From NCBI RefSeq assembly GCF_052324685.1, contig NW_027506963.1, positions 310,001 to 374,000 of the forward strand: a DNA stretch of 64,000 bases, given 5' to 3'. Shown here in pieces: positions 19,300-40,288 of this stretch. How positions within the stretch are numbered: the first letter of the stretch is position 1; every line of letters starts with the position of its first letter. This DNA is from Brachyhypopomus gauderio. Its lineage: Eukaryota; Chordata; Actinopteri; Gymnotiformes; Hypopomidae. A model generated the notes under the pieces. The model was given only the letters and a program-made list of their open reading frames with translations. It was not told where the DNA came from and made no database searches. A program made the translations under genes and the position numbers.

Positions 19300-19554
19300 C
19301 ATGTAAAAAACAACAGCATAACATTCATTCTGGCGGCTGCTCTGGAGCTCTTTTGCAGTGGGTGTGGTGTGTCCACGTGGCTCGGCCGCTGGTCTTCACA
19401 GCTGTGTTGGTTGTTAGCAGCACGTGGATCTCTGATCAGCACCCAGTCTCCCGGCTGGAACTCGTGCAGTGGATTCTCTGACACCTCTGACAGCTTTGAC
19501 CTGCTCAGACAAAATAGAGACAAACTTGTGCAGGATAACATATTAATGGCTCAA

Positions 19555-19588
<34 letters not shown>

Positions 19589-20351
19589 ATTCCAGCAGCA
19601 CTACTCCCATGTTTGGAGGCCTTCCAAACACAAACTCAAAGGCTGATAAGCCTGTGCGAGCTTGGGGCAGAGTGCTGCTCTGCCACAAAACCAGAGGCAG
19701 ACATTTCAATCCTGTTTCCTGAGTTAATTTCCTTTAAAATTTAGTTAATTTAGCTCATTTAGCCCTTCGTGTACAAAGGGAGTGCCGTTGTCACTCGACA
19801 CCCTCCTGGGTAACCCCCATCGTGGGATTATTTCCCTTAGTAGCATCTTTGCCACCGTATCTGAATTCTGCTTTGTGGTGGGGAAGGCCTCCGTCCATTT
19901 GCTAGACATACATACACACAAGCCTGTATTTCAGCATGTGTTAGTTCAACAAGATCAATTTGCCAGTGTTGAAAGGGTTCGGTCGGCGGCAGGTGTCCGG
20001 TGGATGCATGTTTAGGTCTGTTATACCCCTGTGGTGGGATACCAGACAATGTGAACAAAATTTTTTGGGTGAGTATGGTTATTCTTAGTGCATGCTAGTG
20101 CATGCCACTATCCCCCCTTTGCTCATTGATTCCTACCATGAGCAATTTCAATCAGTCCTCTCATGTAGGCTGTAGGGAGACACGGCTTACCTGTCTCCGT
20201 GTGTGTGTCCAGACTCCCCCCATTGTTTTGCACCCCCCCTTTTGCCCATCTCTGTTTGTCTTACATTGTGGCTTGTGTTTGTATTGCTCTGGTTGTTAAG
20301 GGTGTGTCTTCTCTGTTACTGTGATCCGTTAGCATCATTTGTGTGTCTGGA
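19300..20351 (-). pseudogene. Endogenous retrovirus pol, integrase region
   Basis: Fragments of a retroviral integrase in several frames: a catalytic core start (FQHWQIDLVEL) near 19900-20000 and the C-terminal domain motif (EFQPGDWVLIRD) near 19430-19470. The layout resembles gamma/epsilon-like fish retroviruses. It is interrupted by stops, by a (GT)n tract at 19557-19583, and at 20351 by the transposon. The rest of pol resumes at 31606. Confidence 0.78.
20348..20351. repeat. 4-bp target site duplication TGGA (left)
   Basis: TGGA directly before the element; the same four bases follow the right inverted repeat at 31606-31609. Confidence 0.8.
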
Positions 20352-20715
20352 GTACGGTGGCCGATAAGGGCAAAACAAGTTTACATTTTAGGAAACAAAT
20401 TTACAAAAATACAAAAAACGAATTTACAAGTATCGAAACACTTTTACCAGCTACCAAAACACTTTTACCAGTAGGCTACCGAAACAAATTTACAAACGGC
20501 GAATCTGACGGAAAGGGTAGGTACAAAACAAAGGAAGTGCTTGTTGCTGACCATTGTGTCAATCAAACTTGTTCGCGGGGATAGAGTGAGTGGAGTTAGC
20601 GGTCAAGTCAAGATTAGCAATGTTTTGTCCATTTTGCGGCACCCATTTTAGCCAGTTGGCAAGTTTTTGTTTTTCATGTGGGAAGTCTTTGGAGTTTTTA
20701 AAAGAGCAGTCAGAA
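20352..20715 (+). repeat. Left terminal inverted repeat (364 bp)
   Basis: Matches 31242-31605 inverted, without indels. The one mismatch seen is CTACCAAAAC here against CTACCGAAAC. It contains the presumed promoter, 5' UTR and first 42 codons of the transposase gene. Identity ends exactly after the codons for KEQSE. Confidence 0.93.
20372..20493 (+). promoter_or_regulatory. Six iterated 13-bp motifs in the TIR (candidate transposase sites)
   Basis: Motif (R)AAAC(A/G)..TTTAC starts at 20372, 20392, 20415, 20435, 20456 and 20481 (for example GAAACAAATTTAC, GAAACACTTTTAC, AAAACAAGTTTAC). Spacing is 20, 23, 20, 21 and 25 bp, near two helical turns. The mirror set lies at 31464-31585. A role in transposase binding is inferred. 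Confidence 0.6.
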
Positions 20716-21960
20716 GACGACGTAATGCGTTTTTGTATAGGCTACTTCAATGAAGGTCACTCCTATGATGTAATCGTCGATATGATGTCCTCTTTACACG
20801 GTGTAAACATTAGTTTGCGGTGTCTTCGAGGATGCGAGATGAGAGCACGCAGAAGGTTCGTCAGAAGGACCTACTATTCAATGGGGCCCAACTATATATG
20901 GCATTCTGATGGTTACGACAAACTCAAGCCATTTGGATTGGCCATTTCGGGCTGCATAGATGGGTTTTCACGGAAAGTATTGTGGCTTGTGTGTGGACCA
21001 ACAAATAATAACCCATCAGTAATCGCTCGCAATTTCCTCTCTTGTGCACAAAAACTTGGTGTTGTCCCCATGAGACTGAGGACCGATTGCGGTACGGAGA
21101 ATGGCCTTATGGCTGCAGTTCAGTGCACTCTTCGACACCAGCACACCGACTACTACTCAGGAGTGTCTAGTCACGTGTATGGCTCATCCACCAGCAATCA
21201 ACGCATTGAGTCGTGGTGGTCGATATTGAGAAAGGGAAGGTATGCAGCCCTAAGGATTTGTTTTCATAATTGCTATTAGTCTAAAGATATAACATTTTTA
21301 CTGTCATTCATAATCATGTAGATTAACTGACATGAATATCACTGTATAGGAAGATAATTCAGCGTAAACACACCAGTTACATTGTACAGTATATTTAACC
21401 TGACTATAGACCATTATTATTGCACTCCATTTCTAAAGGTCTCAGTTCTGGATGGAACTATTTGCTGACCTCAGAGATGCAGGACACTTCAGTGGAAGTC
21501 ATGAACATCAGTGTTTACTGAGGTTTTGCTTTGGCGATGTCGTACAGAAGGACCTGGATGAATGTGTGACACTGTGGAACAGTCACAGGATTCGAACTTC
21601 AAGAACAGCATCATGTCCTGGAGGAGTGCCTAATGAACTTTACTACTTACCACACAGGTAACTAATTAGTGATGTATTGTTTCTTTACTGTAGCTGTTAT
21701 TTGTGGCATATATGTAAATGAATGCTTTATTAAGATCCATTCCTCAATCTAGATTTGGCTCCAGAGACTGTGGCTTTAGAGTTGAACAGACAGAACTGGA
21801 TGGTTTTCCTGAGATAAGACAGACGGTTAATCCGTGTGGTGACCCAAACATCCAGGAGTACTTGGACTTTGTGATGGAACACAGACAGCTACAAAAGCCA
21901 AGCAACTGGGAGACTGCAGCACAACTGTACCTTTGTCTCAAAGACATATCACAGCTGTAA
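20590..21960 (+). CDS. DDE integrase-core transposase with N-terminal zinc ribbon (358 aa, 3 exons)
   Basis: Exons 20590-21239, 21439-21657 and 21753-21960; donors GTATGC and GTAACT, acceptors TCTAAAG and AATCTAG; phases fit throughout. Residues 13-30 form a zinc ribbon (CPFC, 10 residues, CFSC). Residues 50-95 look like a small helical basic region (RARRRFVRR). The rve-type catalytic core runs from about residue 100 to 300. It has D107 in IWHSDGYDKL, the strand GCIDGFSRKVLWLVCG, D166 in LRTDCGTEN and E207 in NQRIESWW, a DDE triad with 40 residues between D166 and E207. WMELFADLRDAGHF and TLWNSHRIR follow the core. The layout matches the integrase-core (rve_3/rva_4-like) proteins of fish and fungi. 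It should cut and join the element's ends in the nucleus. I chose ATG 20590; a second ATG at codon 11 is also possible. Confidence 0.9.
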
Positions 21961-22090
21961 TTGTTCTGATTAGACATTAACTGAGTAGATTTTATAATTT
22001 TACCTTTCCAACTACTTGAAGCTCACATGAATATGTTTGAAATATGGAGTAACAGTAATACATAGAATGAAATATACTGCAAATATGGAA

Positions 22091-22096
22091 AATAAA
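22091..22096 (+). terminator. Polyadenylation signal AATAAA of the transposase gene
   Basis: Canonical AATAAA 130 bp after the transposase stop codon and before the HECT stop on the other strand. Confidence 0.55.
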
Positions 22097-22258
22097 CATT
22101 TTTTTTCAAGTACTGTTTCTCCCCTTAATACATCATTGCTGTATCAAAATGTATTTGCCATCAAGAACATTCACATCTTCATTTATGCTTAAAATATAGC
22201 AATAACAATGTGTTTTCCATCACAAACATATAAATCTATCACCTAGGTATACCATGGT

Positions 22259-25200
22259 TTAATAACATGTAAATCCTGGGGAATTCTGAATTCCAAAGTC
22301 CATATTTGTCCTAAACTCATTGTATGAATCCAGAAGTGGTAATTTCAGTGTGTTTGAGCATGTATTTGCCATTGGAAATGGTGAATCATCCAGGAACTCA
22401 ATCTTTGGCAGTGGATCCAATCCAGCAGGGGGAAGTGAAGTTAGTCCAGTTGCAAACATGAAAACGTCATCCACACACACAGCAGCCTGGCCTTCTGTAA
22501 AGCAATAGAACTGTGATGCTTATACTGCGAGTGTTTTTAATTAGTAGTAAAAATGGTCATTTATTACACAATCTCTTTAGCAAACCTTCACAATCAAGAA
22601 GATAGTCGGCCCAGTAACCCAACGTTTGACCTTCTCTAATTCTCCTGTTGCTCCCGGATGGACTGAGGTCAGGTTGGAAAAGACTCTCAAGTTGGAGAGC
22701 AGTGAGTTTCTTCTCTGAGTGGCACAGGACTGGGACCAGCAATGTAGGGTAAAGCTGCAGTGCTGTCAAAAACTGAAGGGCTGAAAGACCTTCTTTAAAT
22801 CTGGAGAGGACAACACACTGTTATACCAATCATAGTATACCAATCAGTAAATAGTATGCCAACATAATACAAATAGTATGATGACAATATAAACATTCTC
22901 TAAAATGACAATCTGCTAAATCACCAGAAACATTTTAAATGTGCTGTACATTATTTATACAGCCCTTCACACAGTATTCATTCTAAGTTGTCTGTTAACA
23001 GCTACACTGTGGACCAGCAGCACTTGTTGGGAACATGGCAAACCAACACAAAATTCTAAGAATAGGATGTTACCTGTTGATTACACACGAGTTGCGGTCA
23101 ATAATATACCATCGAAGATAGTCTGACACAATTGTTCCCTTTTCTTCAAGAGTATTCACATGTCTCAGACAACCAGCTGTCTGTAGCATTGTACTATGCC
23201 TTAGCATACTTTCTCGCAGCGCATCCACTGAAGCAGCACTCTCAATCTACAACACAAAAAAAGAAAATACATGTACAAACACCAGTGTTACAACTGTGCT
23301 GAGAATACCACTTATATATTCCATGCTTTGGGGTAGAGTGGGCTCATTGAGAAACAGGAGAAAAGGTAACTAAAACAAAAAGGTCACTCCTTACCTTTCT
23401 CTTAAAACTATAATTTTCTGATTATTTCCAACAGAAAGTTAAATTAGTTGTGTTTTCAGTAGTGAAATGAGCATCCCTTCAGTTGCATTTACTCTACTGA
23501 TTGAGAAACTAAAACTGGTTCATTCAATTACACGTTGTTCAATGTTTGGTCAGGCAAAGTGTATGGGGTTCAAACTCCATCTGGGTTTGTTCTACACTAT
23601 ACCAATAATACTTGGGCAAGGCTCCTAACACTACTCGCATGCCTCTAACATGACTGAAGATCATAAGTTGAGATGAATGAGAGCATCTGCCCTAACATAG
23701 GCTTTGTTTTCTTACCTCTCGCAAAGCTTCCCCTATTCCTTCATCAGTTATTAAATCAACTGTTCCTTTGAATGAACTCTGCCCTGCAAGGTAAAGTACA
23801 AGCTCTTCCGATAGGAAATGTGGGCCTGGACCGCCATGCACCACTGAAACTGCAATCATCTTTCCTGCCATGTAGTACTCATCCTCCCTGACAGCTGTGA
23901 ATGAAAATTATTAATATTTCTATATTCAGATACACTACATAAACATCTATATAGCCCGCCCGTTCACATTTTTACTGGCCCACAGCCTCTAGTGCAAAAT
24001 GCGGGCCCGCGTTCAAATTTTCCGGCCCACAGCCTCTGTTGACCACAGCATGTTATATTTCACCAGAAGATGGCAGTGATTTCTAACCCCCCCCACCCCC
24101 CCCCCCCCCATGCATACCATTTGCATTGTAGACCAAAAAACGTTGTCCTGCTGGTCCATCAAAAATAGGCCGATCTTTCAGATTGTTCGTTAGTAGAGTT
24201 AGAAACTCTCGTCTTGGACCACCTGCATCGATTCCATCTTCAAAAACACCAGCATCATCAGTAAATCTGACCAGCATGTCACAGCTTTCTGAATAGGTTG
24301 CACGCTTGAAACCTCGGACTGCTCCATCCCAGACATTTGACCGTGAAATGTTGAACCGGCTGACTCTTCCATGATCAATTGGATGCGACAGGTTTGTGAT
24401 GATATCAGGTAGTGTAATTTTTACTTCCTCTCTGTAATTACACAAAAGTGACCTACATTGGTAAAGATTTCAGACAGTACACAATTTGCTATTTTACACA
24501 ACGCTACATAAGCCTGTAGTATAAGGCTGCTTTCATATATTGCCAGAAATTAAATCTTAAAGCTGTAAATGTAAAGAGAAAAATTGTGTTGTCACAACCG
24601 GCAACTGTCAGCTTACATGGTCAAGTCTGGAATAGTCTTAAAATCTACAGGGACAGGCTCTTCATCCTCTTCCACACATGGTGCATAAAGGTCTGTGTAT
24701 TTACTGTAGAGAAATGGCCATTTTACAAAAAAAATAAAAAATTACACTACTTTAAGTGATTTACAAAATGAGTTATCAAAATTTTTTTTTCCTTACCTGT
24801 AGCAAGTTGACTTGACCAAATTGTCCTCTGAATCAGATATTACTATCTGAAAAATAAATTGACAAAGGAACCTAAATGTCCAACACAACACAAAACTGAA
24901 AGCAAAGAAATTGAACTAAAGCCGGCTTTAATACCTGTTCATGATTTACTGTAGAGGAATGTCCTACTGCACCTCTGAAATATGTTAAAAGTACTAGTTT
25001 AGTGCAACAGGGTAATCTTGATTGTTATATTTCACATAAATTTTGCACTGCTTAGTCAGAGGAAAAACTGGTCTCAACATAAATTTAAGGGTCTAACGGT
25101 CATGCTTTTGGAAATTAATACCTGAAATCCTGTTAAATCTAGGCATTCAGATACATTTACAATAGTGATTCTATGATTTTTGGGAGATTGTTGTGTGTGT

Positions 25201-28200
25201 CGCAGCCCGGCTAGCCTGATGCTAAGCTAGCTCGCTCGAACATCTAGACGGCGCTCCTACCTTCAAACTCGGCCTCTACTCAGCGGTGCATACCGTCAAA
25301 GCGTCATTATGCCACCAAAAAGAAGCACGTTAGTGGAGGAGAATGAGGATCTCAGGAAGACTCTAGACTCTCTCACACAAGATGTGTCGGAAATCAAGTC
25401 CAAACAAGACAAGATTCTGCAACTTGTGGAGGAGGTTTACAAACTAAGGGCGCTGGTCGAGGAGAAAGACATGAAGATTGCAGTGCTGGAGCGACGAGTG
25501 GACGACTTGGAGCAATACTCAAGGATGAACGACGTGATTGTGACCGGCATAAAGCTAAAACCCCGGTCTTACGCACGTGCGGTGACCGCGGACAGCGAGG
25601 ACAGAGACGGCAAGCTGGATGTGAGCTCCACGGAGCAACAAGTGGCGGCTTTTCTTGCGACCAGAGACATACATCTGGACATTGACTCTATCGAGGCTTG
25701 TCATCCTCTTCCAGCTATAGGTAACACCACACCAGCTGTAATCCTGAGGTTTGTAAATAGAAAAAACAAACTTGCACTAATGAAACAAGGGAAAAAGCTG
25801 AAGGGTACAAATGTTTATTTGAATGATCATTTGATTAAACGGAATGCGGACATTGCCAAAAAAGCCAGGTATCTGCGGAAACAAAACAAAATACAGAGCA
25901 CATGGGTCGCGAATTGTAAAATATATATAAAACTTAAAGGTACACCAGAAGAAGCCAAGGTGATGGTCATTAAGGACTTGGAGGAACTGAAAAAATACGA
26001 TGAGTAGGAAAAACTATCAGTCTGAAACAATGATATCTAATAATGATCAAATTATAAGGATGGAAAAAGAAATAGGGATACAGCAAATGATTGTGAATTA
26101 TGGGCACTTAGACCTGAACTTATTTGAGTACACTGATCATAAAGTGTCAGGTTTGGGTGATGATTTAGATCCAGACAATAACCTGTTAATATCAAAAACA
26201 ATAGAGTGTAAGTACTTCACGGACGATGATTACAAATATGTTAACTCTAAAGGGAAATTCTCCATTATTCATTTTAATAGTAGAAGCATGTATAGTAACT
26301 TCATTTATATAAAAGACTATTTACAACAGTTTCCACAATCATTTCACATTATTGCAATTTCAGAAACATGGTTTAATGAGGATATAGGTATAGATTTTGA
26401 ACTGGAGGGTTATAATTTGAACTATCTGAACAGAAATAACAAAAGGGGAGGGGGCGTTGCTATATATGTTCACAATAGTATTAGATACAAAGTAATAGAT
26501 AATATGACTATTACAATAAAAGACACATTAGAATGTATATCAATAGAAATATTTAATGGAAAAAAGAAAAATATTACTGTAAGTTGTGTATACAGGTCAC
26601 CAGGTTCAAGTCTGGATATTTTTACAGATTGGGTGGAAAAAACTTTTTCTACAATGAAGAATAAATCAGTGTTTATCTGTGGGGATTTCAATATTGATGT
26701 AATTAATCCTAATAATAACAAAGCAACCGATGAATTTATTAACATGATGTATAGTATGAGCTTTTTTCCAACTATTACTAAACCTAGTAGAATTACATCT
26801 CACAGTGCAACACTCATTGATAATATTTTCACAAATAATATTGAATTTATAAATATTAGTGGCCTTATGATCTGTGATATAACCGATCATTTACCTGTTT
26901 TTATAATATATGATGACGACTGTAATCACGATAAAGCACCCAAAAAACCCATATATAAAAGAATAAAAAATGATAGAACTATCAATGCATTGTATTATGA
27001 TCTCCTAGAACAAGACTGGAATATAGTATACAAAGAAAGTAATGTTGATTGTGCATTTGAGAAATTTCTACAAAAATTTACTTTAGCATATAATAAAAAC
27101 TGTCCAATTCATCAAATTAGTAAAAACAATAGCATTATAAAATGTCCATGGCTAACCAATGGATTAAGAAATGCCTGTAAGAAGAAGAATACTTTGTATA
27201 AACAGTTTATCAGGTTAAGGACTAGGGAGTCGGAGCAGAGATATAAAATTTATAAAAATAAACTCACTGATATTATGAGAACTAGTAAAAAAATATATTA
27301 TAGCAATTTATTAGTGGATAATAAGAATAACACTAAAAAGGTTTGGGGAATACTGAACACAGTTATTAAGGGGTATAAAATTAAGAAATCATATCCAGAT
27401 TATTTTACTGACAGTGAGACCAATGAGAATTATAATATGGATGATGTTGTAAATAAATTTAATAAATTTTTTGTAAATGTTGGGCCAAACTTGGCTGCTA
27501 AAATTCCGAAATGCAAAGTAAACCAAAGAGATAATTTATCAATAGGAAGCAAACTAAGTACAATGTTTCTGTCTGGAGTAACCGAGTCTGAACTAGTCGA
27601 TACAGTTAATAAGTGTAAAAATAAATCATCTACCGATTGCTATGACATAGATATGACTGTAATTAAAAAAGTTGTAAATAGTATTTCTAAACCATTAACA
27701 TATATATGTAACCTATCTTTCAAAACAGGAACATTTCCAAATAAAATGAAGATTGCAAAAGTAATACCACTTTATAAAAACGGCGACAAGCACATCTTCA
27801 CTAACTACAGACCGGTCTCTCTACTTCCTCAGTTTTCAAAAATATTGGAGAAACTGTTCAACAATAGATTAGAGAAGTTTTTAGATAAACATAATATAAT
27901 TAATGAAAGTCAGTATGGCTTTAGGTCAAAGAGATCAACATCTATGGCTATAATTGATGCAGTAGAAGAGATCACAAATAAACTAGACAAGAAAAAATAT
28001 GCAGCTGGAATATTTATTGATTTGAAAAAAGCCTTTGATACACTGGATCATGAAATTTTACTAAATAAACTGACAAGGTATGGCATCAGGGGAGTGGCCT
28101 TAAATTGGATTCAAAGCTATTTGACGAAGAGACAACAGTTTGTGAAGATGGATGAAATTGAGTCAGGATATTTGGACGTTGCTTGTGGGGTTCCACAGGG

Positions 28201-31200
28201 GTCGGTATTGGGTCCTAAGCTGTTTATTTTGTATATAAATGATATATTTGAAGTTTCAAAGTCATTAAAACTAATTTTATTTGCAGATGATACCAATGTA
28301 TTTTATTCTAGTGATAATTATGTTGACCTAATACAAAGTGTTAACAGTGAATTAAATAAATTAAAGGTATGGATGGATATTAATAAACTTTCTTTAAATT
28401 TAAATAAAACTAAAGCTGTATTCTTCGGGTACAATAAGGAAAATTTAGATCAGGTTATAAATATAGATGGTGTTAGTATTGCTACTGTGTCAGAAGTAAA
28501 ATTTTTAGGAATAACCATAGACAGTAAACTAAGCTGGAAACCACACATCAAACACATACAAAGTAAAGTTTCTAAAAGTGTTTCAGTTATCAATAAGGTC
28601 AAATACTTCCTGAATTACAATGCATTGTATTTATTGTATTGTTCATTAGTATTGCCATACTTAATTTACTGTATAGAAATTTGGGGCAATAACTATAAAA
28701 GTTCTCTGTATCCCCTCTTCTTAATTCAGAAACGTGCTGTACGAGTTATCCATAAAGTAGGATTTTATGATCACACTCATAAGTTGTTCCTACAGTCTAA
28801 ATTACTAAAACTACCTGATCTGGTGGATTTCTATACAGCACAGCTTCTATATAAAGCAAATAAAAATAGTTTGCCTACTAATATTCAAAAGCTTTTCACA
28901 AAGAGAGAAAGGGCATATAACTTGAGGGGTAGTGGCAACTTTAAGATTCAGCCAATAAGAACAAAGAGGAAAAGTTTGTGTGTGTCTGTGTGTGGGGTTA
29001 AGCTTTGGAACCAACTGGGGCAACAACTAAAGCAATGTCCAAATATTCATTACTTTAAATCAAAATATAAAGAAACAGTTTGGTTGCAATACATGGCAGC
29101 CAGTTAGGCAGTCATTGTTGGATTAAAAATAATAATAATAATAATATAAATAACAGTAAAAATAATAATAATAATAAATATTGATGATGACGATAGTAGT
29201 GATGATGGTGATGGTTAATAGTAATAGTGATGATAACCATTGTTGTTGTTATCATGGTTAATGTTGTTATTGTTAGTAGAGTAATTCATATTGATATAAC
29301 TACCTACATAGTAATGTGAAATGGACATATGTAATATGGAATAAATCTGGGATACTATGTATCTATAATATTTGTATGTGTGATAGTGTTGTGGGTTGTG
29401 GATGGCAGCAAAAAGATGGATTCTGATTTGGGATGGACGGGGGGTGGGAATTAATAAGCATGGCTTCATCCCACTCCTTTCCAAGTTGTTGTATGTATGT
29501 TGATGTATGCGTAATGTATGCATATGTGTAACTGTAAAATATGAATATTTATATATAATTGTATATTGGATTGTAATTGTTGGCTTGGCTTGGAATAAAT
29601 TAAATCAAATCAAATCAAACATGTGACCTCAACACATACTATATTTGACAAAGGACTTACGTTTACATGTTAGTACTTACACTTCATCTTCGGGTCTGTT
29701 GTTTGGTGTACTTTGGTTCTGGGGTTTAAAAACCTGAGGTTAAAAACAAACAATTCACAAAAACATTAGGTAGTATGTACTGTTCTTCTCTTACGACACA
29801 TATACTGACCAGCCAGTTCATTAAAGCCACCACACTCCTCCACTCATATCCTCACTCTGACTACTGACCATAGAGATGCACACTGTAGTTCAGATTCAGT
29901 GTTCAGGACTAAGTATATTTTTTCCTAATTTGCTTAAATGTTAACTCACCACAGTGTCAGCCTCACTGAATTCAGCTCTGCTCCTAGTTGTGATGACAAT
30001 TTCAGAATCAGAGTTTGATTCAGAGTTAACATTGACTGCAGATACATGAAACAAAATAAAAATTAAAATCACAATTATGTATGTAACCGTAATTATATAA
30101 AAGTACTATATCAGATCCACAGACCTTCTCCAAAATGTTTTTGCAGGCACACAAACAAAGTGATCTTGCAATACGTCTTTCCAATTTCCTTTTTATATCC
30201 AGCCAATGTGAATGACCTTTCAGTCCCAGGCACATAGACCACCTCAGAGCAGTCTGGATACAAAAGGACATATGGTCCTTCTTCCATGTCCTTGTAAAAC
30301 ACCCTCATTTTCTGAACAGCTTGTTTCAGCAAATCACGTGCTTCTATCTCTGGGTCAGTAAGTAAGGGGAGTGTTTTTCCTCTCACAGGTTTTAAGTCAC
30401 ATCCATGTGGTACCATCAATCCAATGTTTATCTAGCAAAATAAACAAAGAATATGATTACTGTACATTTTATATGCAACAGCTATTTAAATAGCAATACA
30501 AACGTTCATACTGTAATGAATATTATATAATGAAATCTGTCCTTGTAAGCTAATCTGTGGTTATTATTTTTTTTGACTGTAACTAATGCTAAAATGGCCC
30601 AAAGCAATGAAAAATAGAGAAGCTTTCTATTTTTACCTTGGATGCTTAAAATAGTCATATAGATTATACACACTATGATCGATTCCGGGCCCGCCGACGG
30701 GCCTGGGATTTTTTACCATTTTTAATCAAATTCGTCTACTGATAAAACCTGACCTAACTGTAAACACATTCTCTTGCAGCTATCCATGTTGAGCAACTTA
30801 CCTGAACTTGTCTCCTTTCTTGTTTTGATCGTCTCTTTGGCCCACAGCTAAAGGCCTGTCTTTCTTTTGATTTGCTGTTTCTGTACTCCATGAAATGTTT
30901 GTAAGATGGGCAAGGCTGTTCAGCTGGAACAAACAGACCTAATCAACATTTTCAACTGAAAGTTATCAATCAAACATCCGTCATTCCTGCTCTCCCACAA
31001 AATATTTTTTCTGTCATTCTTGTCCCGATTGTTATGCCAAGCTGGCTTCATATTTTGGCAGCCCTTTTCTAATCAAATAAATGAGTGCATAGCATAAAAA
31101 ACATCTCTGATAAAGACAGCTAGCTAGCTAGCGTTTACAATTCTATCCTTACATTACTAGCGTTTACATTACTAGCTAGCTAGCGTTACACTTACTGTCA

Positions 31201-31367
31201 TTAACATTTCCAAGTGGTTTAGACATCGACGTAGCATCGGTTTCTGACTGCTCTTTTAAAAACTCCAAAGACTTCCCACATGAAAAACAAAAACTTGCCA
31301 ACTGGCTAAAATGGGTGCCGCAAAATGGACAAAACATTGCTAATCTTGACTTGACCGCTAACTCCAC
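22259..31367 (-). CDS. HECT E3 ubiquitin ligase of the transposon (677 aa, 13 exons)
   Basis: Exons 31196-31367, 30802-30923, 30125-30431, 29950-30035, 29681-29733, 24935-24974, 24797-24846, 24617-24703, 24118-24431, 23716-23894, 23074-23246, 22586-22800 and 22259-22494. All have GT-AG borders and matching phases, 2,034 nt in total. Residues 1-42 equal the transposase N-terminus (zinc ribbon). Then come a basic segment ([11 protein letters not shown]), a conserved domain ([18 protein letters not shown]) and an acidic linker with two SUMO-interacting-like motifs (SEIVI at 211-215, IVISDSED at 261-268). The HECT domain covers about 325-677, with N-lobe [34 protein letters not shown] and the C-lobe catalytic C645 in [11 protein letters not shown], 32 residues from the end. 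It resembles the HECT part of fish G2E3-like proteins. It would pass ubiquitin from E2 to an unknown substrate. The LINE lies in intron 5. Confidence 0.9.
24080..24112 (-). other. G-run directly after a HECT 5' splice site
   Basis: On the minus strand, the intron after the exon ending at 24118 starts GTATGCATG and then runs into long uninterrupted guanine tracts. A quadruplex could form next to this donor. Confidence 0.6.
25309..26007 (+). CDS. LINE ORF1, coiled-coil nucleic-acid-binding protein (232 aa)
   Basis: Starts [17 protein letters not shown]. It has a strong coiled coil over about residues 8-70 (heptads through [19 protein letters not shown], then [20 protein letters not shown]). 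An RRM-like part follows, with [23 protein letters not shown] and [12 protein letters not shown]. This is the common ORF1 plan of several LINE clades: a trimeric RNA chaperone for the element's own transcript. Undamaged. Its stop overlaps the ATG of ORF2, so ORF2 may be translated by reinitiation or stop-start coupling. Confidence 0.87.
   Translation: MPPKRSTLVEENEDLRKTLDSLTQDVSEIKSKQDKILQLVEEVYKLRALVEEKDMKIAVLERRVDDLEQYSRMNDVIVTGIKLKPRSYARAVTADSEDRDGKLDVSSTEQQVAAFLATRDIHLDIDSIEACHPLPAIGNTTPAVILRFVNRKNKLALMKQGKKLKGTNVYLNDHLIKRNADIAKKARYLRKQNKIQSTWVANCKIYIKLKGTPEEAKVMVIKDLEELKKYDE
26000..29107 (+). CDS. LINE ORF2, endonuclease-reverse transcriptase (1035 aa, intact)
   Basis: An AP endonuclease at about residues 85-310 ([60 protein letters not shown]) is followed by the reverse transcriptase at about 590-860. 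RT motifs are [62 protein letters not shown] and the catalytic [11 protein letters not shown]. The C-terminal part has [17 protein letters not shown] and WNQLG. No RNase H domain was seen. Length and order match CR1/L2/Daphne-type elements; the exact clade needs a tree. The uninterrupted frame suggests recent insertion. Confidence 0.92.
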   Translation: MSRKNYQSETMISNNDQIIRMEKEIGIQQMIVNYGHLDLNLFEYTDHKVSGLGDDLDPDNNLLISKTIECKYFTDDDYKYVNSKGKFSIIHFNSRSMYSNFIYIKDYLQQFPQSFHIIAISETWFNEDIGIDFELEGYNLNYLNRNNKRGGGVAIYVHNSIRYKVIDNMTITIKDTLECISIEIFNGKKKNITVSCVYRSPGSSLDIFTDWVEKTFSTMKNKSVFICGDFNIDVINPNNNKATDEFINMMYSMSFFPTITKPSRITSHSATLIDNIFTNNIEFINISGLMICDITDHLPVFIIYDDDCNHDKAPKKPIYKRIKNDRTINALYYDLLEQDWNIVYKESNVDCAFEKFLQKFTLAYNKNCPIHQISKNNSIIKCPWLTNGLRNACKKKNTLYKQFIRLRTRESEQRYKIYKNKLTDIMRTSKKIYYSNLLVDNKNNTKKVWGILNTVIKGYKIKKSYPDYFTDSETNENYNMDDVVNKFNKFFVNVGPNLAAKIPKCKVNQRDNLSIGSKLSTMFLSGVTESELVDTVNKCKNKSSTDCYDIDMTVIKKVVNSISKPLTYICNLSFKTGTFPNKMKIAKVIPLYKNGDKHIFTNYRPVSLLPQFSKILEKLFNNRLEKFLDKHNIINESQYGFRSKRSTSMAIIDAVEEITNKLDKKKYAAGIFIDLKKAFDTLDHEILLNKLTRYGIRGVALNWIQSYLTKRQQFVKMDEIESGYLDVACGVPQGSVLGPKLFILYINDIFEVSKSLKLILFADDTNVFYSSDNYVDLIQSVNSELNKLKVWMDINKLSLNLNKTKAVFFGYNKENLDQVINIDGVSIATVSEVKFLGITIDSKLSWKPHIKHIQSKVSKSVSVINKVKYFLNYNALYLLYCSLVLPYLIYCIEIWGNNYKSSLYPLFLIQKRAVRVIHKVGFYDHTHKLFLQSKLLKLPDLVDFYTAQLLYKANKNSLPTNIQKLFTKRERAYNLRGSGNFKIQPIRTKRKSLCVSVCGVKLWNQLGQQLKQCPNIHYFKSKYKETVWLQYMAAS

Positions 31368-31605
31368 TCACTCTATCCCCGCGAACAAGTTTGATTGACA
31401 CAATGGTCAGCAACAAGCACTTCCTTTGTTTTGTACCTACCCTTTCCGTCAGATTCGCCGTTTGTAAATTTGTTTCGGTAGCCTACTGGTAAAAGTGTTT
31501 CGGTAGCTGGTAAAAGTGTTTCGATACTTGTAAATTCGTTTTTTGTATTTTTGTAAATTTGTTTCCTAAAATGTAAACTTGTTTTGCCCTTATCGGCCAC
31601 CGTAC
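31242..31605 (-). repeat. Right terminal inverted repeat (364 bp)
   Basis: Inverse of 20352-20715. It holds the 5' UTR and first 42 codons of the HECT gene; the reading frames separate right at its inner edge (KEQSE then TDATS). The six iterated motifs lie at 31464-31585. Confidence 0.93.
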
Positions 31606-31609
31606 TGGA
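31606..31609. repeat. 4-bp target site duplication TGGA (right)
   Basis: Matches 20348-20351. The retroviral pol sequence resumes after it. Confidence 0.8.
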
Positions 31610-32059
31610 GCCTGCAAAACTGTATGTTGGGCTGTGGAGTCTGTGAAGGCATTGCCTTTTGCTACTGTGTCGCCTGTTCTGGTGTGTGCGGCACATTTGA
31701 TGATTGCAGTTGTGAGATTAGTTGGTGCTTTATCTTTGACCTTGAGCTGGTAAGGAATGGTGAGCTCAGCTGCTTGGGCAGAATAATGTGGCGGGAGTGA
31801 TATTGTTTCCAAAACCTCTTGTGTGGATAAATGTGCTTTTTTTTCTCTGGTCCTTAAAAATGTTTGACCCAAAGGGCGAGTTGAGCGTACTCCACTATAT
31901 CTCTGAATGCTACCAGTGCCCGCACCCCGGCTGCCCCGGGGTCTAGTTTTCCTGAAAAGTAGGCTACTGGCCTCTGTCTGTCACTGTGGGCTTGAGTCAA
32001 AACACTGGTCCTTTAACGTCAACACTCCCCACACACATACGAACACTGACTACACACAC

Positions 32060-32200
32060 ATAAATTCTGAACTTTTATTTCAGAATTCAAAACTGTTCTT
32101 AAGACTCATTTGTTCAAACGGGCTTATTCTCTTTAACAAATGTTATTTTTGTCTCTGTTATGTCAGAATTTCAGTACATACTACGTCATGACCCAGGAAG
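32060..32200 (+). mobile_element. Short L2 3' fragment
   Basis: Plus-strand FQNSKLFLRLICSNGLILFN resembles the L2 ORF2 C-terminus (pattern F.S.LKT.LF..A). It is 5'-truncated and lies within retroviral pol. Confidence 0.5.
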
Positions 32201-33719
32201 TGCACTTTTTGTCAGCAATATTGCAATTTTGCTTAAGAACCTTGTGGCCTTCCCTTGCTAGGTGATGTAGCAATGCCACTATGGCCCTCTTTGCATACTT
32301 CTCATGTGTTTACACAGAGTATCAGAACATCTACGTAGTGCAACAGTGCAATGCCCTCTGGAAGTTTCAGAGAGGCCAGACTGTCTCGCAGCGCTGCATT
32401 GTAAATGGTGGGTGATGTGTATGTTTTTTTTTTACTTCAAAGGAAAATGCAGACCAGTACTGGCTATCTGGATGCACTGAAAATGCATTTGCTAGGACCA
32501 CTACACTGAACCACTGGCTATCTGGGGGAATCTGGGAAAGAATATTGTGAGGATTTGGCACTTTTGGGGCTCTAACGTGTACTGCTGCATTGACAGCCAG
32601 CAAATCCTGCACAAATCGCCATTCTTCCCGCCCTGGTTTCTTAACTTGCCTAAGTGATTGGAAAAACTGGCCTAATTTCCTTTGAGCGCCTCAAGCTTCA
32701 AAGGGTATTGATGTTGTTTTGGCCTATAGTCAGATTTTGGGGTGATGTGTATGGGCTCACACCCCCTGTATGAGCCCCAACATCGCTCTTACCTTGTGCC
32801 CATAATGCTGCAGGAACAGTTCTGAGTTCCTCTTCCTCTCATTTTTTTTTCTTCTCTGAGAGGGTAAGGGAGGCAGCTAAAAAAATACCAAGGGGGTTAA
32901 TCAGTTCCACTCCCCGCCTGCAGGGGAGCCAGCACGGCTGCATCCACGCCTCCTGCTAGGGCTAAACATGGTGTTCCTGCCAGGAACTCTCTCCCAATCA
33001 GTAATGTCAGACATCTCTGTCATCCATTCACCGACGTCCTGCCATTGTGGCTCCTCGCACACGTTTGCTAGTGACACGTGTGGTTTAGATCGAGGAAATG
33101 AGAACAGGTCTTCCTGTTCTAATGTGGTTTGCACCATTGCCGCAGCCCACACGCAATCCCACACAATAGCAGTGACAACCAAGCAATCATGTTTTCCAAC
33201 ATCAAATTTATCCTCAAAACTTCTATCGGGGCCCTCACTCACATGCAGCGTGCAGTGCAGTGGCCCCTACGGTCTCAACATCAAATCACCTGGCAACAAA
33301 CTACACACTTCACACATGAAGTGTTCCCAACACTCTCCTCCTGCACTCTGCAGCTCATAAGCATACAGTGGAACTCCTGCTGATAACTGAACCCCAACAC
33401 AGCTAACTCCCACTCCATAAACAACCCCTCAGGCCTGCTACTCAGGCCCAATTTACACATTAAGTCACAACCCATAGCAGTTAAATTAAATTAAATTAAA
33501 AATTCATGTTCAAATGTATTATTTCATTTACATCAGAGAGGCTCTTTTTTTTTTTTTCTTTTCTTTGAATTTGGTGGCACCACTATAAACCAAAAACTTT
33601 TTTTTTTTTTTTTTTTAACCAAAACCATTTACAATTACTTTTATTTTAGGCAGGCCCTGCAGCCCTACACTAATCTTCTGCAAGCATTGATAAATTAAAT
33701 CATAATTTAAACCAGTTAC

Positions 33720-34550: not shown

Positions 34551-37412
34551 TTAACTAAAAGCGGATCTAAACAGGAATGTTTTGAGACTGTTCTTAAAAC
34601 TATGCAAGGATGAAATGCCTCTGAGCTCTTCAGGAAGAGAATTCCAGAGCTTTGGGCCATAGTGGCTAAAAGCACCCTCGCCAATCTTTAATCGGCTTTT
34701 AGGAATCACCAGTAGATTACTGTTTGAAGACCTGAGAGACCTGACTGGAACATATCTAACCATCATTTCACTGAGGTAAAGAGGGGCAAGACCATGAAGA
34801 CATTTAAAAACCATCACTAGAACCTTAAAATCTATTCTAAAGCTGACAGGTAACCAGTGCAGTGAGTGGAGTGCAGGTGTAATATGATCTCTCTTTCTCC
34901 TGCGGGTCAGAACCCTTGCAGCCGCGTTCTGAACTCGCTGTAGGTGCGAAATAGAGCTCTTTGGAAGAGCAGATAGAACAGCATTACAATAATCTAGCCT
35001 TGATGTGATAAATGCATGGACAAGTTTTTCACTGTCAGCAGGAGAGAGCATATCTCGTACCTTAGTGATGTTTCGAAGGTGAAAGTAAGCTGTCTTGCAT
35101 GTAGTCATGATGTGTGATTTGAAGTTGAGCTCATTATCAAAGGTGATGCCCAGGTTCTTAACACATTGTCTGGCATTCAGATTCATATGATTTAAATAAG
35201 TCTGGACATCATTCCTCTGTGAATCACTGCCAAGAACAAGAACCTCTGTCTTCTGTTTATTTAACTGTAGAAAATTGTCAGACATCCATGTCTGTATATC
35301 ATCTATGCAGTCAAACAGTGAGCAAATTGATTTTAGGGCTTTAGGTTCTAGCGAGATATACAGTTGAGTGTCATCTGCATATTGATGATAACTAATACCA
35401 TGTTTTTTAATGATGTGTGGTAACGGAAGCATATATAGGTTGAATAGTAACGGCCCAAGAATTGATCCTTGGGGGACGCTACAAGTTATTTTTTGACGTG
35501 TGGAGGAAGAGGTACCTAATGCTACATAGTAATCACGCCCAGTTAGGTATGATCTAAACCAGTCTAAGACTAAGCCACTAAGGCCTACCCAGCTCTGTAG
35601 TCGATCAAGAAGTATTTCATGATCAACGGTGTCAAAAGCGGCGCTTAAATCTAGCAGAAAAAGGACTGAGAGTTTGCCTGCATCCTTATTCAATCTCAAG
35701 TCATTTACTACCTTAACTAGGGCTGTTTCAGTGCTGTGGAGAGCTCTGAAACCAGATTGAAAAGTGTCATTTATTTGATTTACTTTGACATAGTCATTCA
35801 ACTGGATTGACACTACTTTTTCAATTATTTTGCTAAGAAAGGAAAGGTTAGATATAGGTCGATAATTATTAAGAATTGTGGGATCAAGATTTCTGTTCTT
35901 TAATAGTGGTTTAACCATTGCAGTTTTAAAAATTTTAGGGAATTCACCCAATTTCAGAGACTGATTAACAATCGTTAGAACTTCATTTGCTAATGAGCTC
36001 AGAACATGCTTGAAAAAGCTTGTTGGTAAAGGGTCCAGTTCACAAGTAGAGGATTTTAGTGATGAGATCACATCAAGTAGTGTTACCATGTCAACTTCTT
36101 GTAAATAAGACATATTAAAGTTAGGCTGAGTAACTGATGTAAGGGTTGATGGTCTATTAGTGCTTGTTGCTATGTTCTGCCTTATACTAGTAATCTTGTC
36201 CCTAAAAAATATAGCAAACTCCTCACATTTTTCAACTGAAACAGTCTCAGGGAAGCTACAGGAGGTGGGGTTTACTAGCAGATCTATGCTTCTGAACAAG
36301 ACAGCTGAGTTATTATTGGATGAATTTATTAAGGTAGAGAAATAGTTTTTCCTTGCTGATTTCACTTCACTGTTGTAATTCTGCAATGTTGTTTTATAAA
36401 TATCAAAATGTACTTGCAATTTTGACTTTCGCCAACGTCTCTCAGCCTGCCTACAATCTTGCCTAAATTTTACAATAGATGGAGTGTTTCTCCAGGGCAT
36501 CTTAATTTTACCAGAGATTATTTTAGTTACCTTTGGTGCCACAGCATCAATACAGTTCCTAACTCTGTGTGCGAATGTTTCAACTAGCTCATTCCCATTT
36601 TCTGAGAGGGGAGGGAGGGACTGTATCATGTCTGTGAAGGCCACGGCACTGCCAGCACTGAGATAACGCTTGGTTATTGTACGCTTTTCACTGAGTGTTC
36701 TAGTAGATAATGACATATTAAAAAATACACCAAAATGGTCAGAGATTGCAACATCAGTAATTTCAGTATTATTAACCTCTATACGTTTAGAAATGATCAA
36801 ATCTAAAATGTGGCCATGCTTATGAGTTGGGCCTGATACATGCTGTATGAGATCAAAAGAGTTAAGCATCCTCATGAACTCTGAAGTGATTGGATTTGTG
36901 GATATATCCATATGAATATTAAAATCCCCAGCAATTAAAACATAATCAAAATCAACCAAAATCCTTGAAAGCATTTCCTCAAAATCCTCAAGAAAATCTG
37001 CATGTAGTCTGGGAGGATGATAGACAACAACCAAAAGAACTGAATAAGTACTGTTGAGTTGTACTGCCAGATATTCAAATGTAGGATGTTCCCCCAATGA
37101 GATCTGCTTACAACGGAATGCTTTATGGTAAAAACATGCAACACCACCACCTCTCTTATTTACTCTGGAGACATTAAAATAGTTAAAGTCGGGAGGCGAA
37201 GCCTCATTTAGCACTATTGCTCCATTGCTATCAAGCCAAGTCTCTGTTAGAAAAAGAAAGTCCAGACAGTAATCTTCAATTAATTTAGCTATTACAAAAG
37301 ACTTGTTTGTGAGTGAGCGGACATTTAGTAAGGAGACTTTGAAGACTTGGTGCGTTTGATCAGCATCACTTACATCCAGGCCCGTTGACAGTCTTGCTGG
37401 GGCCCGGGACAA
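34551..37412 (-). CDS. L2 ORF2, endonuclease-reverse transcriptase (start disrupted)
   Basis: Open for 953 codons. AP endonuclease: [57 protein letters not shown]. Reverse transcriptase: [68 protein letters not shown] and catalytic HQYADDTQLYI. The C-terminus has NLGITFDNELNFKSHI, SRLDYCNAVL, ALHSLHWLPVSFRI and LKTFLFRSAF. The first 12 codons (37377-37412) belong to the hAT insertion, which happens to supply an in-frame ATG; the native N-terminus lies beyond 38268. Otherwise no damage was seen. Confidence 0.9.
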   Translation of the reverse strand: MSRAPARLSTGLDVSDADQTHQVFKVSLLNVRSLTNKSFVIAKLIEDYCLDFLFLTETWLDSNGAIVLNEASPPDFNYFNVSRVNKRGGGVACFYHKAFRCKQISLGEHPTFEYLAVQLNSTYSVLLVVVYHPPRLHADFLEDFEEMLSRILVDFDYVLIAGDFNIHMDISTNPITSEFMRMLNSFDLIQHVSGPTHKHGHILDLIISKRIEVNNTEITDVAISDHFGVFFNMSLSTRTLSEKRTITKRYLSAGSAVAFTDMIQSLPPLSENGNELVETFAHRVRNCIDAVAPKVTKIISGKIKMPWRNTPSIVKFRQDCRQAERRWRKSKLQVHFDIYKTTLQNYNSEVKSARKNYFSTLINSSNNNSAVLFRSIDLLVNPTSCSFPETVSVEKCEEFAIFFRDKITSIRQNIATSTNRPSTLTSVTQPNFNMSYLQEVDMVTLLDVISSLKSSTCELDPLPTSFFKHVLSSLANEVLTIVNQSLKLGEFPKIFKTAMVKPLLKNRNLDPTILNNYRPISNLSFLSKIIEKVVSIQLNDYVKVNQINDTFQSGFRALHSTETALVKVVNDLRLNKDAGKLSVLFLLDLSAAFDTVDHEILLDRLQSWVGLSGLVLDWFRSYLTGRDYYVALGTSSSTRQKITCSVPQGSILGPLLFNLYMLPLPHIIKKHGISYHQYADDTQLYISLEPKALKSICSLFDCIDDIQTWMSDNFLQLNKQKTEVLVLGSDSQRNDVQTYLNHMNLNARQCVKNLGITFDNELNFKSHIMTTCKTAYFHLRNITKVRDMLSPADSEKLVHAFITSRLDYCNAVLSALPKSSISHLQRVQNAAARVLTRRRKRDHITPALHSLHWLPVSFRIDFKVLVMVFKCLHGLAPLYLSEMMVRYVPVRSLRSSNSNLLVIPKSRLKIGEGAFSHYGPKLWNSLPEELRGISSLHSFKNSLKTFLFRSAFS

Positions 37413-38260
37413 GAAAGATTCATGTACCCCCCCCCCCCCCTCCCCTCAGCGCGAGGGTTCGCGCGAAAATGACGTAATCGCAGTGGCTCCGCCCGCGCGC
37501 TGTCGGTTCGCGAGGTCGTGCACCTCTCGAATTTTGTAACTTCGCGCGCGCCGCGCTTCAGCGCAATGAACAAAGTTGTTTGTAGGGTTCATACACCTTT
37601 ATAAGGTGGAATTAAAGCACGTGTACATTACTTTAAAGGTCCATTTCAATATTTTCCAGCACGTTAAACTTAATTAAGTTAAATATTTATACATATACTC
37701 GAAATGATTCGAAATAATTCGCTTTTTATCACATTATTTAATGGTTGTTTATTTTCAAAACGCCCAATCTTAACGTCTTCACGAGAACTGTTCAGTCAGA
37801 CAGCTATTTGTTGTGAAACGAAGTAGTTACAATTTCAAGCATTTCAAGTACTTTACCCTAAATTCCAGCACTTTTCAAACCTGGAACACAATGCAACTTT
37901 AAAATTCGTCAGGTAAATGTTTTCCTTTCTTTTCTGCGCTCCAGATTTCTGTATTTACTTTAACTATCCACCACTGTTGGGCGGATACCGGCCGGCTACA
38001 GTCGGTGCTGGATCAAACCATTTTCCAGTGGGAGGCGGGGGTGTATGCACTTAATGGAAAATATGCAGATAGGTAAAAACATATATATTTGAGCCATTGA
38101 GCTTATTATGAGTACATAATTTTATATTAATGAAAGATTAAGATTATTTAAAAATTATAGACTTTAAATAAAAAATACATTGCTGGGCTCTTTGATGGGC
38201 CCCCCTGGCCCTAGGGCCCGGGACAACAGACCCGGTCATCCCCCCCTGTCGACGAGGCTG
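37377..38260. mobile_element. hAT-type non-autonomous element in the L2
   Basis: 884 bp flanked by a perfect 8-bp duplication CTTACATC (37369-37376 and 38261-38268). Imperfect ends are CAGGCCCGTTGACAG and the inverse of CAGCCTCGTCGACAG. Inner parts contain GGGCCCGGGACAA near both ends and the module shared with the elements at 5223 and 47404. No transposase ORF. Confidence 0.85.
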
Positions 38261-38427
38261 CTTACATCACTTGTGCATTTCACTGGGATCAAATTTTGTT
38301 TGTTACAATGTTTTGTGCCCTTGTGTTTTCTTCTGATTACATTTTTATTTCGATTCTGAGAGCCATGCCACCGGCTATTTAAAAGAACTGGAATGTAGCA
38401 CTGACTAGGAGCATGGGTTCCAGTGTG

Positions 38428-39891
38428 TCAGACCTGAGAAATCACTGAGTGTGCAGGAAAAGTAGGTGAGTTCCTACAAGACTGTAGACTGTAGTGTTGC
38501 GGAACCTCTTCAATCTCCTGGAGTTTACCTCTGAGACTGTGGACAGATTCTCTGACAGGAGATGGTGGGCTCCTGTGACTGACATTACTGACGTTACTGC
38601 TGGCGGTTGGGTGCAGATTCCGCATGTGAGTGATTCCATACATTAGATTATCCACAAGCATTTGAGTCCCAGCCCTGTTAGGGTGAAGCTGATCAGGTTT
38701 AAAAAGCTCAGGATGCCTCCAAAAGATGTTGAAATTGTCAATGAAGTTTATCTTCCGATGAGCACAGGCTGTAGTGAGCCAGCTGTTTAGAGCCAGCAGT
38801 CTGGTAAAGTGACCACTGCCTCGACGTGCAGTTGGTATCGGTCCAGAAATGAACACTTCACACCGGGAAAACTCCAGAATGTCGAGCAGATGGTTAAAAT
38901 CCTGTTTCAGAATCTCAGACTGTTGTTTGTAAACATCGCTAGAGCCGACATGTACAATCAGTCTTTCCGTAGCTGGATGGTCATGCAATATGTGTGGAAT
39001 CATGGGTATCACTTCACAGACAGTAACACGAGGAAAGCAAAAGGCCTTAATACTGTTGCTCCATACATCTCTGATGACTGAGTCCCCAATTAGCAGCGTT
39101 TTGGGCTGTGGCGGTGTTCCTCGTCTCCTTTCACCGTTAATGCCTCGGCGGCTAACATGGTTAGCATCCCGATGGCTAGCATGTTTACCACCCCGATGGC
39201 CAACATGGTTAGCATCCCGATGGCTAACCCTATTAGCATGCTTATTAGATAGCTGTCGATTGGCACGAATTGCAAGCTGGTGGTTGGGACGACTGTTAGC
39301 ATGCTTGTTAGCATGCTGCTGGCTAACACAGTTTGCAGCCTGGTGGTTGGTCCGCAGATGGCCAGAGTTATTTGCATGCTTAGCAGCCCGACTGGAGTCG
39401 GATCTCTGATGCTGATTGGGGTGTGCTTGATGTCCTTGATGTCCTGGAGAGGGAGGCAGTATGTTGTGATGAGACTGCTCAGTTTCTGCTACTTCTGTTG
39501 AGGCAAGAGCTTCATATCTGTTATCGAGAAGAATGTTCTGTTCTGAAGATTGCTGCTTGCCGCCGCTGCTGTGCTGGTTTCTGCTACGTTCCTTCCCCCG
39601 AACAAGAGTCCAGCCCTTATCATTGTTGTTGTTAACGGGATTAGGAGTTGAGGCCAAGATGAGCTTAGGCTTTGCCCCCAGCACATCCCAGCGACAATGG
39701 AGAGAAACGTCTCTTTCTTTGCCAGTCACAGGGACGGTTTTGTCAGCGGTTTGTGTGGCAAGAATCGAGTCCAGATATTCTTCCTCTTCCCTTATAGAAT
39801 GTAAGGTATGGATTATTTCCTGAAGTTCTGCAACCCTCTGAGATAGTTTGATACACTCAGAGCAAATAGATGATGTGGAAGCATGAGCCAT
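38428..39891 (-). CDS. L2 ORF1 with SGNH/GDSL-type esterase domain
   Basis: Open from a Met at 39891 (MAHASTSSICSECIKLSQRV; in frame upstream to 40026) to 38428, about 487 aa. The N-terminal part has a CxxC-like start and a short coiled coil. A Ser/Asn/His-rich middle shows degenerate repeats (HRDANH, NRQLSNKHANR). The C-terminal esterase domain has block I with the nucleophile Ser (LLIGDSVIRDV), HVGSSDVY, FISGPIPTARRG and the catalytic Asp-His pair (FKPDQLHPNRAGT). Esterase-bearing ORF1 proteins are known for CR1/L2 LINEs, where lipid-membrane or RNP roles are suggested. Intact. Confidence 0.87.
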   Translation of the reverse strand: MAHASTSSICSECIKLSQRVAELQEIIHTLHSIREEEEYLDSILATQTADKTVPVTGKERDVSLHCRWDVLGAKPKLILASTPNPVNNNNDKGWTLVRGKERSRNQHSSGGKQQSSEQNILLDNRYEALASTEVAETEQSHHNILPPSPGHQGHQAHPNQHQRSDSSRAAKHANNSGHLRTNHQAANCVSQQHANKHANSRPNHQLAIRANRQLSNKHANRVSHRDANHVGHRGGKHASHRDANHVSRRGINGERRRGTPPQPKTLLIGDSVIRDVWSNSIKAFCFPRVTVCEVIPMIPHILHDHPATERLIVHVGSSDVYKQQSEILKQDFNHLLDILEFSRCEVFISGPIPTARRGSGHFTRLLALNSWLTTACAHRKINFIDNFNIFWRHPELFKPDQLHPNRAGTQMLVDNLMYGITHMRNLHPTASSNVSNVSHRSPPSPVRESVHSLRGKLQEIEEVPQHYSLQSCRNSPTFPAHSVISQV

Positions 39892-40288
39892 AATCACAAA
39901 AGCACCGGGCACACAAGGCTCAAATATCCAAGTTAAAAATCCAAAGTGCAAAATTAGCACCCAAGAAGTTCTGGCAGGTATTTCACAGCTGAAAACAATA
40001 TCAGCCGCTGATAAAACAGTGCACAAAAACCACTCACAAGGTTGAGGCGCAAAAAACAGCTCACTCGCAGTGTCGGACTGTCGGAATGTAAAAAAATGCT
40101 AAATTATCCTTTATAGATTAATGTAAAAAAGCTTACCAAGTGAAGTAATGAGTAATGGATCCTTTTAACTTGTAAAAATAACTTTAACTTGTAGATAAAA
40201 CTCTAATAAATGAAAGGACAGGCAGAGCTGACAGAAAAGCGTCTGTACAGGAGGAAAGCAGGAAGTAGAAATCTTCTAGAGAAAGGTT

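Follow-up and report, generated by a model that had tools for sequence, protein, structure and literature searches.

Can a ubiquitin ligase belong to the equipment of a DNA transposon, and, if so, what might tie it to the element that carries it? The question is raised by a locus of the electric fish Brachyhypopomus gauderio, in a stretch of 64,000 nucleotides of contig NW_027506963.1 (positions 310,001 to 374,000 of assembly GCF_052324685.1; referred to here as the window), where two spliced genes, one for a DDE transposase and one for a HECT ubiquitin ligase, lie between long inverted repeats. This element is a genuine two-gene DNA transposon, and we are nearly certain of its anatomy and of its status as a unit in which the transposase and the ligase move together. 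Our full reading goes further, in proposing that the element is of the IS3EU/GingerRoot type, that its inverted repeats encode a zinc ribbon shared by both of its proteins and that this ribbon directs the ligase; we give it about an even chance (roughly 0.5).

An inverted-repeat search of positions 19500-32500, for arms of at least 40 base pairs (bp), returned a single pair (20351-20720 and 31237-31606; 99% complementary), and when the arms are aligned from 20352 and 31605 their first 364 positions differ at position 105 alone and contain no insertions or deletions. The termini are read as TACGGTGGCC..GGCCACCGTA, i.e. TACGG..CCGTA, for an element that spans 20353-31604, ends in TACGGTGGCCGA and TCGGCCACCGTA and is flanked on both sides by CTGGAG. 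An initial reading of the locus from its letters alone (the sequence-only reading) had given the inverted ends as 364 bp, rightly with one mismatch and no indels, and the flanking duplication as TGGA. The repeat is 363 bp long because the outermost G..C of the longer version belongs to the duplication, and the 4-bp duplication gives way to the 6-bp CTGGAG with TA termini one base further in. An inverted repeat of this length with a single mismatch lies far outside what chance would produce; the duplication was seen at one copy of the element, and the odds of six matching bases at a set position are 1 in 4096.

The two genes are convergent and spliced, as the sequence-only reading had them, with 3 exons in gene 1, 13 in gene 2 and open frames in both, and its central proposal of a DNA transposon joining an integrase-type DDE transposase to a HECT ligase is borne out by matches to both domains and by the recurrence of the pairing in other fishes. 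The product of gene 1 is identical (100% over 348 amino acids, aa) to the B. gauderio NCBI protein P0001 and contains the PF24764 integrase core (E 9e-31); the catalytic residues that had been called D107-D166-E207 are present, under numbers that were 10 too high when counted from the ATG. For gene 2, in which the 12 predicted introns are all GT-AG and the frame is open throughout its 667 aa, the PF00632 HECT profile is matched from position 21 to 304 of 306 (E 9.9e-13), over both the N and the C lobe, in keeping with the complete HECT domain claimed earlier; its catalytic cysteine, given then as C645, is likewise real and 10 positions nearer to the ATG. The description of both genes as fully open holds for their frames but not for the integrity of gene 1, which lacks 67 residues in comparison with P0002, a 416-aa relative from Metynnis. 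The missing stretch overlaps the HTH_21 region of relatives; it was sought elsewhere in the window and not found, and another B. gauderio protein, P0032, retains the end of it. Because gene 1 lacks these residues, the window copy is probably non-autonomous and dependent on a transposase made elsewhere.

What distinguishes the element is the way in which its two genes begin, which the sequence-only reading had not noticed. Their ATGs lie at equivalent positions inside the two repeats, and the repeats stop 96 bp past the ATGs, exactly at the point where the two proteins diverge. Since both genes start inside the inverted repeat, the transposase and the ligase have their first 32 residues in common, and these residues are identical and form a C4 zinc ribbon of the pattern CxxC-x10-CxxC. 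If the repeat encodes both starts in other elements as well, the two ribbons of any one genome should agree, also when they differ from one genome to another. We looked for ribbons within the first 140 residues of the matches listed for each protein, and found them in 36 of 120 transposases and 48 of 120 ligases; 31 of the 36 transposases (those other than P0008, P0023, P0075, P0111 and P0115, for which no genus was set) were compared with the 48 ligases plus the window's own. Within six fish genera or families (the Polypteridae pair combines Polypterus and Erpetoichthys, and the Takifugu pair T. flavidus and T. rubripes), the identity between transposase and ligase ribbons is 1.00, 1.00, 0.80, 1.00, 0.97 and 0.83, with a mean of 0.93. 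Between genera it is 0.60, whether transposases are compared with transposases (0.60), ligases with ligases (0.59) or transposases with ligases (0.60). The true pairing of the six is the best of 720 permutations, and residues 46-120 of the two proteins are identical to the extent of 0.11. The ribbon appears to be old in the transposase, because in a search from P0115 it is carried within the first 60 residues by 62 of the 120 transposases listed, and by 54 of the 64 listed that have at least 400 aa; the few named matches of that search are corals (Dendronephthya, Oculina, Montipora).

The pairing itself recurs, with parallel divergence of its two members. Inspection by eye of the matches listed revealed a transposase and a ligase under consecutive locus tags in Archocentrus, Notolabrus, Crenichthys and Dissostichus mawsoni, and on contigs of equal size (31,142 bp) in Takifugu flavidus. 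The identity matrices of the two protein cores are correlated over nine genera (r 0.95, 1 of 5000 permutations), namely the six ribbon genera or families plus Metynnis, Notolabrus and Oreochromis aureus, the last three having been matched by genus or species and, in addition, by consecutive locus tags for Notolabrus and by equal-sized contigs for O. aureus. They are also correlated over the seven genera of what we call family 1 (r 0.75, 16 of 5000 permutations). Both gene trees group the loach Misgurnus with cichlid and pufferfish elements, and both reject the grouping of the three otophysan fishes as a clade (approximately unbiased test, p-AU 7e-7 for the ligase and 0.0016 for the transposase), in a test that was named after the nine-genus identity result had been seen. 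Because the two trees agree in these respects, the genes have one history in common, which is not that of the host. Horizontal transfer would explain such a history, as would the sampling of different element lineages in different genomes.

The superfamily to which the element might belong can be judged from its ends, its duplication and its transposase. Published IS3EU/GingerRoot elements are marked by TA..TA termini, a duplication that is usually of 6 bp and a DDE transposase resembling that of IS3 (PMC10045372, PMC12730594, as given in the available portions of these papers), and rust-fungal IS3EU elements end in TAYGG..CCRTA according to the accessible text of PMC12730594. The window copy has TACGGTGGCCGA..TCGGCCACCGTA as termini and CTGGAG on both flanks; among 7 transposases tested, the best NCBIfam match is the IS3 family for 6 and IS481 for 1 (all under the curated cut-off), HTH_21 is matched in 5 of the 7, likewise under the cut-off, and the N-terminus, ahead of the core, is the CxxC-x10-CxxC ribbon rather than an HHCC motif. 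Because of the TA..TA ends, the 6-bp duplication and the IS3-like transposase, the data fit the IS3EU/GingerRoot superfamily instead of a class with 4-bp duplications. Ginger1, Ginger2 and IS481EU elements also have integrase-like DDE transposases, but their published duplications are of 4 bp, 4-5 bp and about 4, 15 or 25 bp, respectively (PMC10045372, available portion), in contrast to the 6 bp with TA ends found here. Ginger1 was rejected on the length of its duplication, and IS481EU on both its duplications and its termini, which are TNT..AYA and not TACGG..CCGTA. An independent hint on the element's ends is provided by contig L001, filed under a bacterial sponge symbiont, where TACGGTGGCCGA precedes a broken transposase relative (268-2930); this contig is probably sponge DNA within a bacterial assembly.

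The product of gene 2 can be classed as a HECT E3 ligase by its fold and its catalytic cysteine, and ubiquitin transfer is its putative activity. The cysteine is invariant in 15 of 15 aligned fish relatives, and a profile of these relatives matches the structures of NEDD4-family, AREL1 and other HECT ligases, those of the NEDD4 type over both lobes. A structure model of the relative P0123 is of modest quality (mean predicted local distance difference test score, pLDDT, 59.6; predicted template modelling score, pTM, 0.39), and in two fold searches with it all 50 listed rows of each were HECT ligases, at high root-mean-square deviations; the model contains an additional confidently modelled domain at about residues 90-200. 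Examples of relatives are P0122 (92% identical to gene 2) and P0121 (86%), both from B. gauderio, and P0123 (76%), from Erpetoichthys. Many NCBI relatives among the matches listed are named 'G2/M phase-specific E3 ubiquitin-protein ligase-like'. G2E3 has N-terminal PHD-type fingers. No PHD match was found by Pfam in gene 2 up to E 1, or in P0123, P0132 and P0144 up to E 0.1. The protein described here combines a zinc ribbon with a HECT domain; we rejected an orthologue of G2E3 on these grounds, and the name of its relatives is probably borrowed.

Each repeat also contains, in its non-coding part, six 14-bp motifs whose starts are spaced by about two turns of DNA. A scan of the window with the motif gave 12 matches, all 12 of them within the two repeats. 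The pattern had been read off the repeat itself, and a less biased test is that of self-similarity: the motif stretch yielded 74 pairs, whereas 150 shuffles averaged 3.6 and reached 17 at most, and 2 of 60 random segments of the window scored as high. Such an array is the kind of site that a repeat-binding protein would use, and the ribbon or the helix-turn-helix region might be what binds it. In the mechanism that we propose, the transposase, with its ribbon, helix-turn-helix region and DDE core, would bind the repeat, with the six-motif array as a possible site, and move the element by DDE chemistry; for the window copy, whose own transposase is without the 67 residues, the enzyme would be supplied from elsewhere. 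With the same ribbon the ligase would go either to the ends of the element or to the transposase, and could there transfer ubiquitin via Cys635 to some protein in the transposition complex, be it the transposase, chromatin or a host repressor; the ribbons would stay matched through gene conversion from one repeat to the other. The targeting of the ligase by the ribbon is the tentative part of this scheme, and we would not ourselves wager on it. With similar reserve we suggest that the repeat might be a self-addressing device, which encodes its own recognition domain, fuses it to both a transposase and a ubiquitin ligase and changes the address along with the ends by gene conversion, and that much of the 'G2E3-like' expansion in fishes might be this machinery.

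Several points weigh against our full reading. The assignment to IS3EU/GingerRoot rests on ends, duplication and profiles, the Pfam matches of the ribbon are all under the curated cut-off, and its binding to DNA or protein is putative. The repeat of other fishes is inferred from proteins, the DNA being known from this locus alone. The six pairs were chosen afterwards, for having a partner at 0.8 or more, which makes the contrast with the between-genus values the informative part of that comparison. Of the 31 ribbon-bearing transposases, 25 remain: for 16 of these the ligase of the same genus attains just 0.33-0.47, and for 9 no same-genus ligase is among the 120 ligase matches listed. The presence of several element families per genome could explain these cases, and is plausible because a further ligase family, with a ribbon of its own, occurs in B. 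gauderio: P0165 and P0192 are about 51-58% identical to gene 2, have the ribbon MYCPNCGKELVELSPNFCSSCGK and probably represent a second element family. Finally, P0121, which is the NCBI ligase model at this very locus, skips the ribbon exon. It starts instead in the flanking remnant and runs into the right repeat in another frame (85 residues at 100%, 31442-31696, minus strand), and this start is either an annotation error or the mark of a chimeric transcript.

The ribbonless P0121 would suit a different explanation, which follows an idea of the sequence-only reading: the ligase would modify restriction or silencing proteins of the host in general, and the shared ribbon would be a by-product of the common start in the repeat, with no targeting role. 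A HECT ligase is able to act anywhere in the cell, but the four cysteines of the ribbon are kept in both proteins of six genera or families while other residues change, and the frequency of the ribbon in the coral-type transposase search suggests that it is used; we regard this explanation as rather unlikely. A special case of our own reading, for which the presence of the same ribbon in both proteins speaks, is that the ligase would regulate the transposase itself through contact between ribbons, and not through DNA, for instance by a breakdown that controls dose or disassembles the joined complex; in this narrow form the idea seems improbable. It is more doubtful still that the HECT gene is a passenger, captured from the host and unconnected with transposition. 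Captured genes are indeed found in transposons, and the relatives of this one are annotated as G2E3-like, yet its catalytic cysteine is invariant in all 15 relatives, and it diverges in parallel with the transposase across nine genera and is found next to it repeatedly. That the shared start is an accident of the window copy, produced when a local inverted duplication included the first codons of one gene by chance, is scarcely credible. This is the only locus known at the DNA level, but the same sharing, with genus-specific sequences, is found in five further genera or families, and for family 1 an accident is already contradicted, provided that those five protein pairs are not artefacts of annotation.

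A useful comparison to the element as we read it is MuDR of maize, in which two convergent genes, for a transposase and a helper, run inward from long near-identical inverted repeats. The two elements are alike in these respects, and differ in the type of transposase, the helper and the termini; the repeats of MuDR are not known to encode a protein domain shared by both products. Among fungal IS3EU elements with a TET/JBP gene, that gene lies between a transposase and an alpha-kinase gene in opposite orientations (PMC12730594, available portion), and there, too, a second gene is opposed to the transposase. For the published IS3EU/GingerRoot elements neither a HECT ligase as second gene nor a common N-terminus encoded by the repeat is mentioned in the accessible parts of PMC10045372 and PMC12730594, and the word HECT is absent from PMC10045372, PMC12730594 and PMC9587614. 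Searches of the open-licence literature for a HECT ligase or G2E3 in a transposon yielded no description of a transposon-encoded HECT ligase, and no already described two-gene family of the kind that the sequence-only reading had named as fatal to its proposal; Repbase and Dfam lay outside this search, and an entry may exist there. Unclassified repeat candidates in an invasive Cottus include one with a blastx match to G2E3 (PMC5638112, available portion), which may be an element of this HECT-carrying kind.

The element adds a ubiquitin ligase to the enzymes known on DNA transposons, presents a clear case of inverted repeats from which two proteins receive the same domain, and makes it possible to test in what way the ubiquitin system might serve a transposon at the complex of its own insertion. 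There is a warning in it, too, that fish genes annotated 'G2/M phase-specific E3 ubiquitin-protein ligase-like' may be transposon genes.

Table. Positions in the window of the features of the B. gauderio element.
Feature	Position	Strand	Details and basis
Left target-site duplication copy	20347..20352	.	CTGGAG, 6 bp; flank comparison
Left terminal inverted repeat	20353..20715	+	363 bp, starts TACGGTGGCCGA; one mismatch vs right repeat
Six 14-bp motifs	20373..20495	+	AAACRMDTTTACMW, starts 20-25 bp apart; candidate binding array; pattern derived from repeat itself
Gene 1, transposase	20620..21960	+	348 aa; exons 20620-21239, 21439-21657, 21753-21960; predicted gene and profile
Left-repeat part coding transposase residues 1-32	20620..20715	+	C4 zinc ribbon
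In-frame loss of 67 residues	20826..20827	+	residues 71-137 of P0002; protein comparison
Catalytic triad of gene 1	D97 (20908), D156 (21085), E197 (21208)	+	numbered from ATG
Gene 2, HECT E3 ligase	22259..31337	-	667 aa, 13 exons; predicted splice sites
Gene 2 exons 1-7	31337-31196, 30923-30802, 30431-30125, 30035-29950, 29733-29681, 24974-24935, 24846-24797	-	
Gene 2 exons 8-13	24703-24617, 24431-24118, 23894-23716, 23246-23074, 22800-22586, 22494-22259	-	
Catalytic Cys635 of gene 2	codon start 22360	-	
Nested LINE in HECT intron 5 (about 25190-29620)	25231..29107	+	frames 25231-26007 and 25991-29107; stop-to-stop frames
Right-repeat part coding HECT ligase residues 1-32	31242..31337	-	same ribbon
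Right terminal inverted repeat	31242..31604	-	363 bp; one mismatch vs left repeat
Matching six 14-bp motifs of right repeat	31462..31584	-	motif scan
Right target-site duplication copy	31605..31610	.	CTGGAG, 6 bp; flank comparison

The element is inserted in a broken remnant of a retroviral-type pol (19748-20346 and 31611-32250, minus strand), in which integrase-like peptides on the left flank and RNase H-like peptides on the right were recognized by eye; a Pfam search of the flank frames tested gave no match. Further along the window (34551-40098, minus strand) there is a long frame of 964 aa of the long interspersed nuclear element (LINE) type, with an adjoining frame of 556 aa that has a weak match, under the cut-off, to a GDSL/OSK-type domain. 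Another LINE, which the sequence-only reading had not noticed, is nested in intron 5 of the HECT gene, in the orientation opposite to that gene, and may be recent; its two frames are of 258 aa and 1038 aa, the longer of which comprises an endonuclease and a reverse transcriptase.

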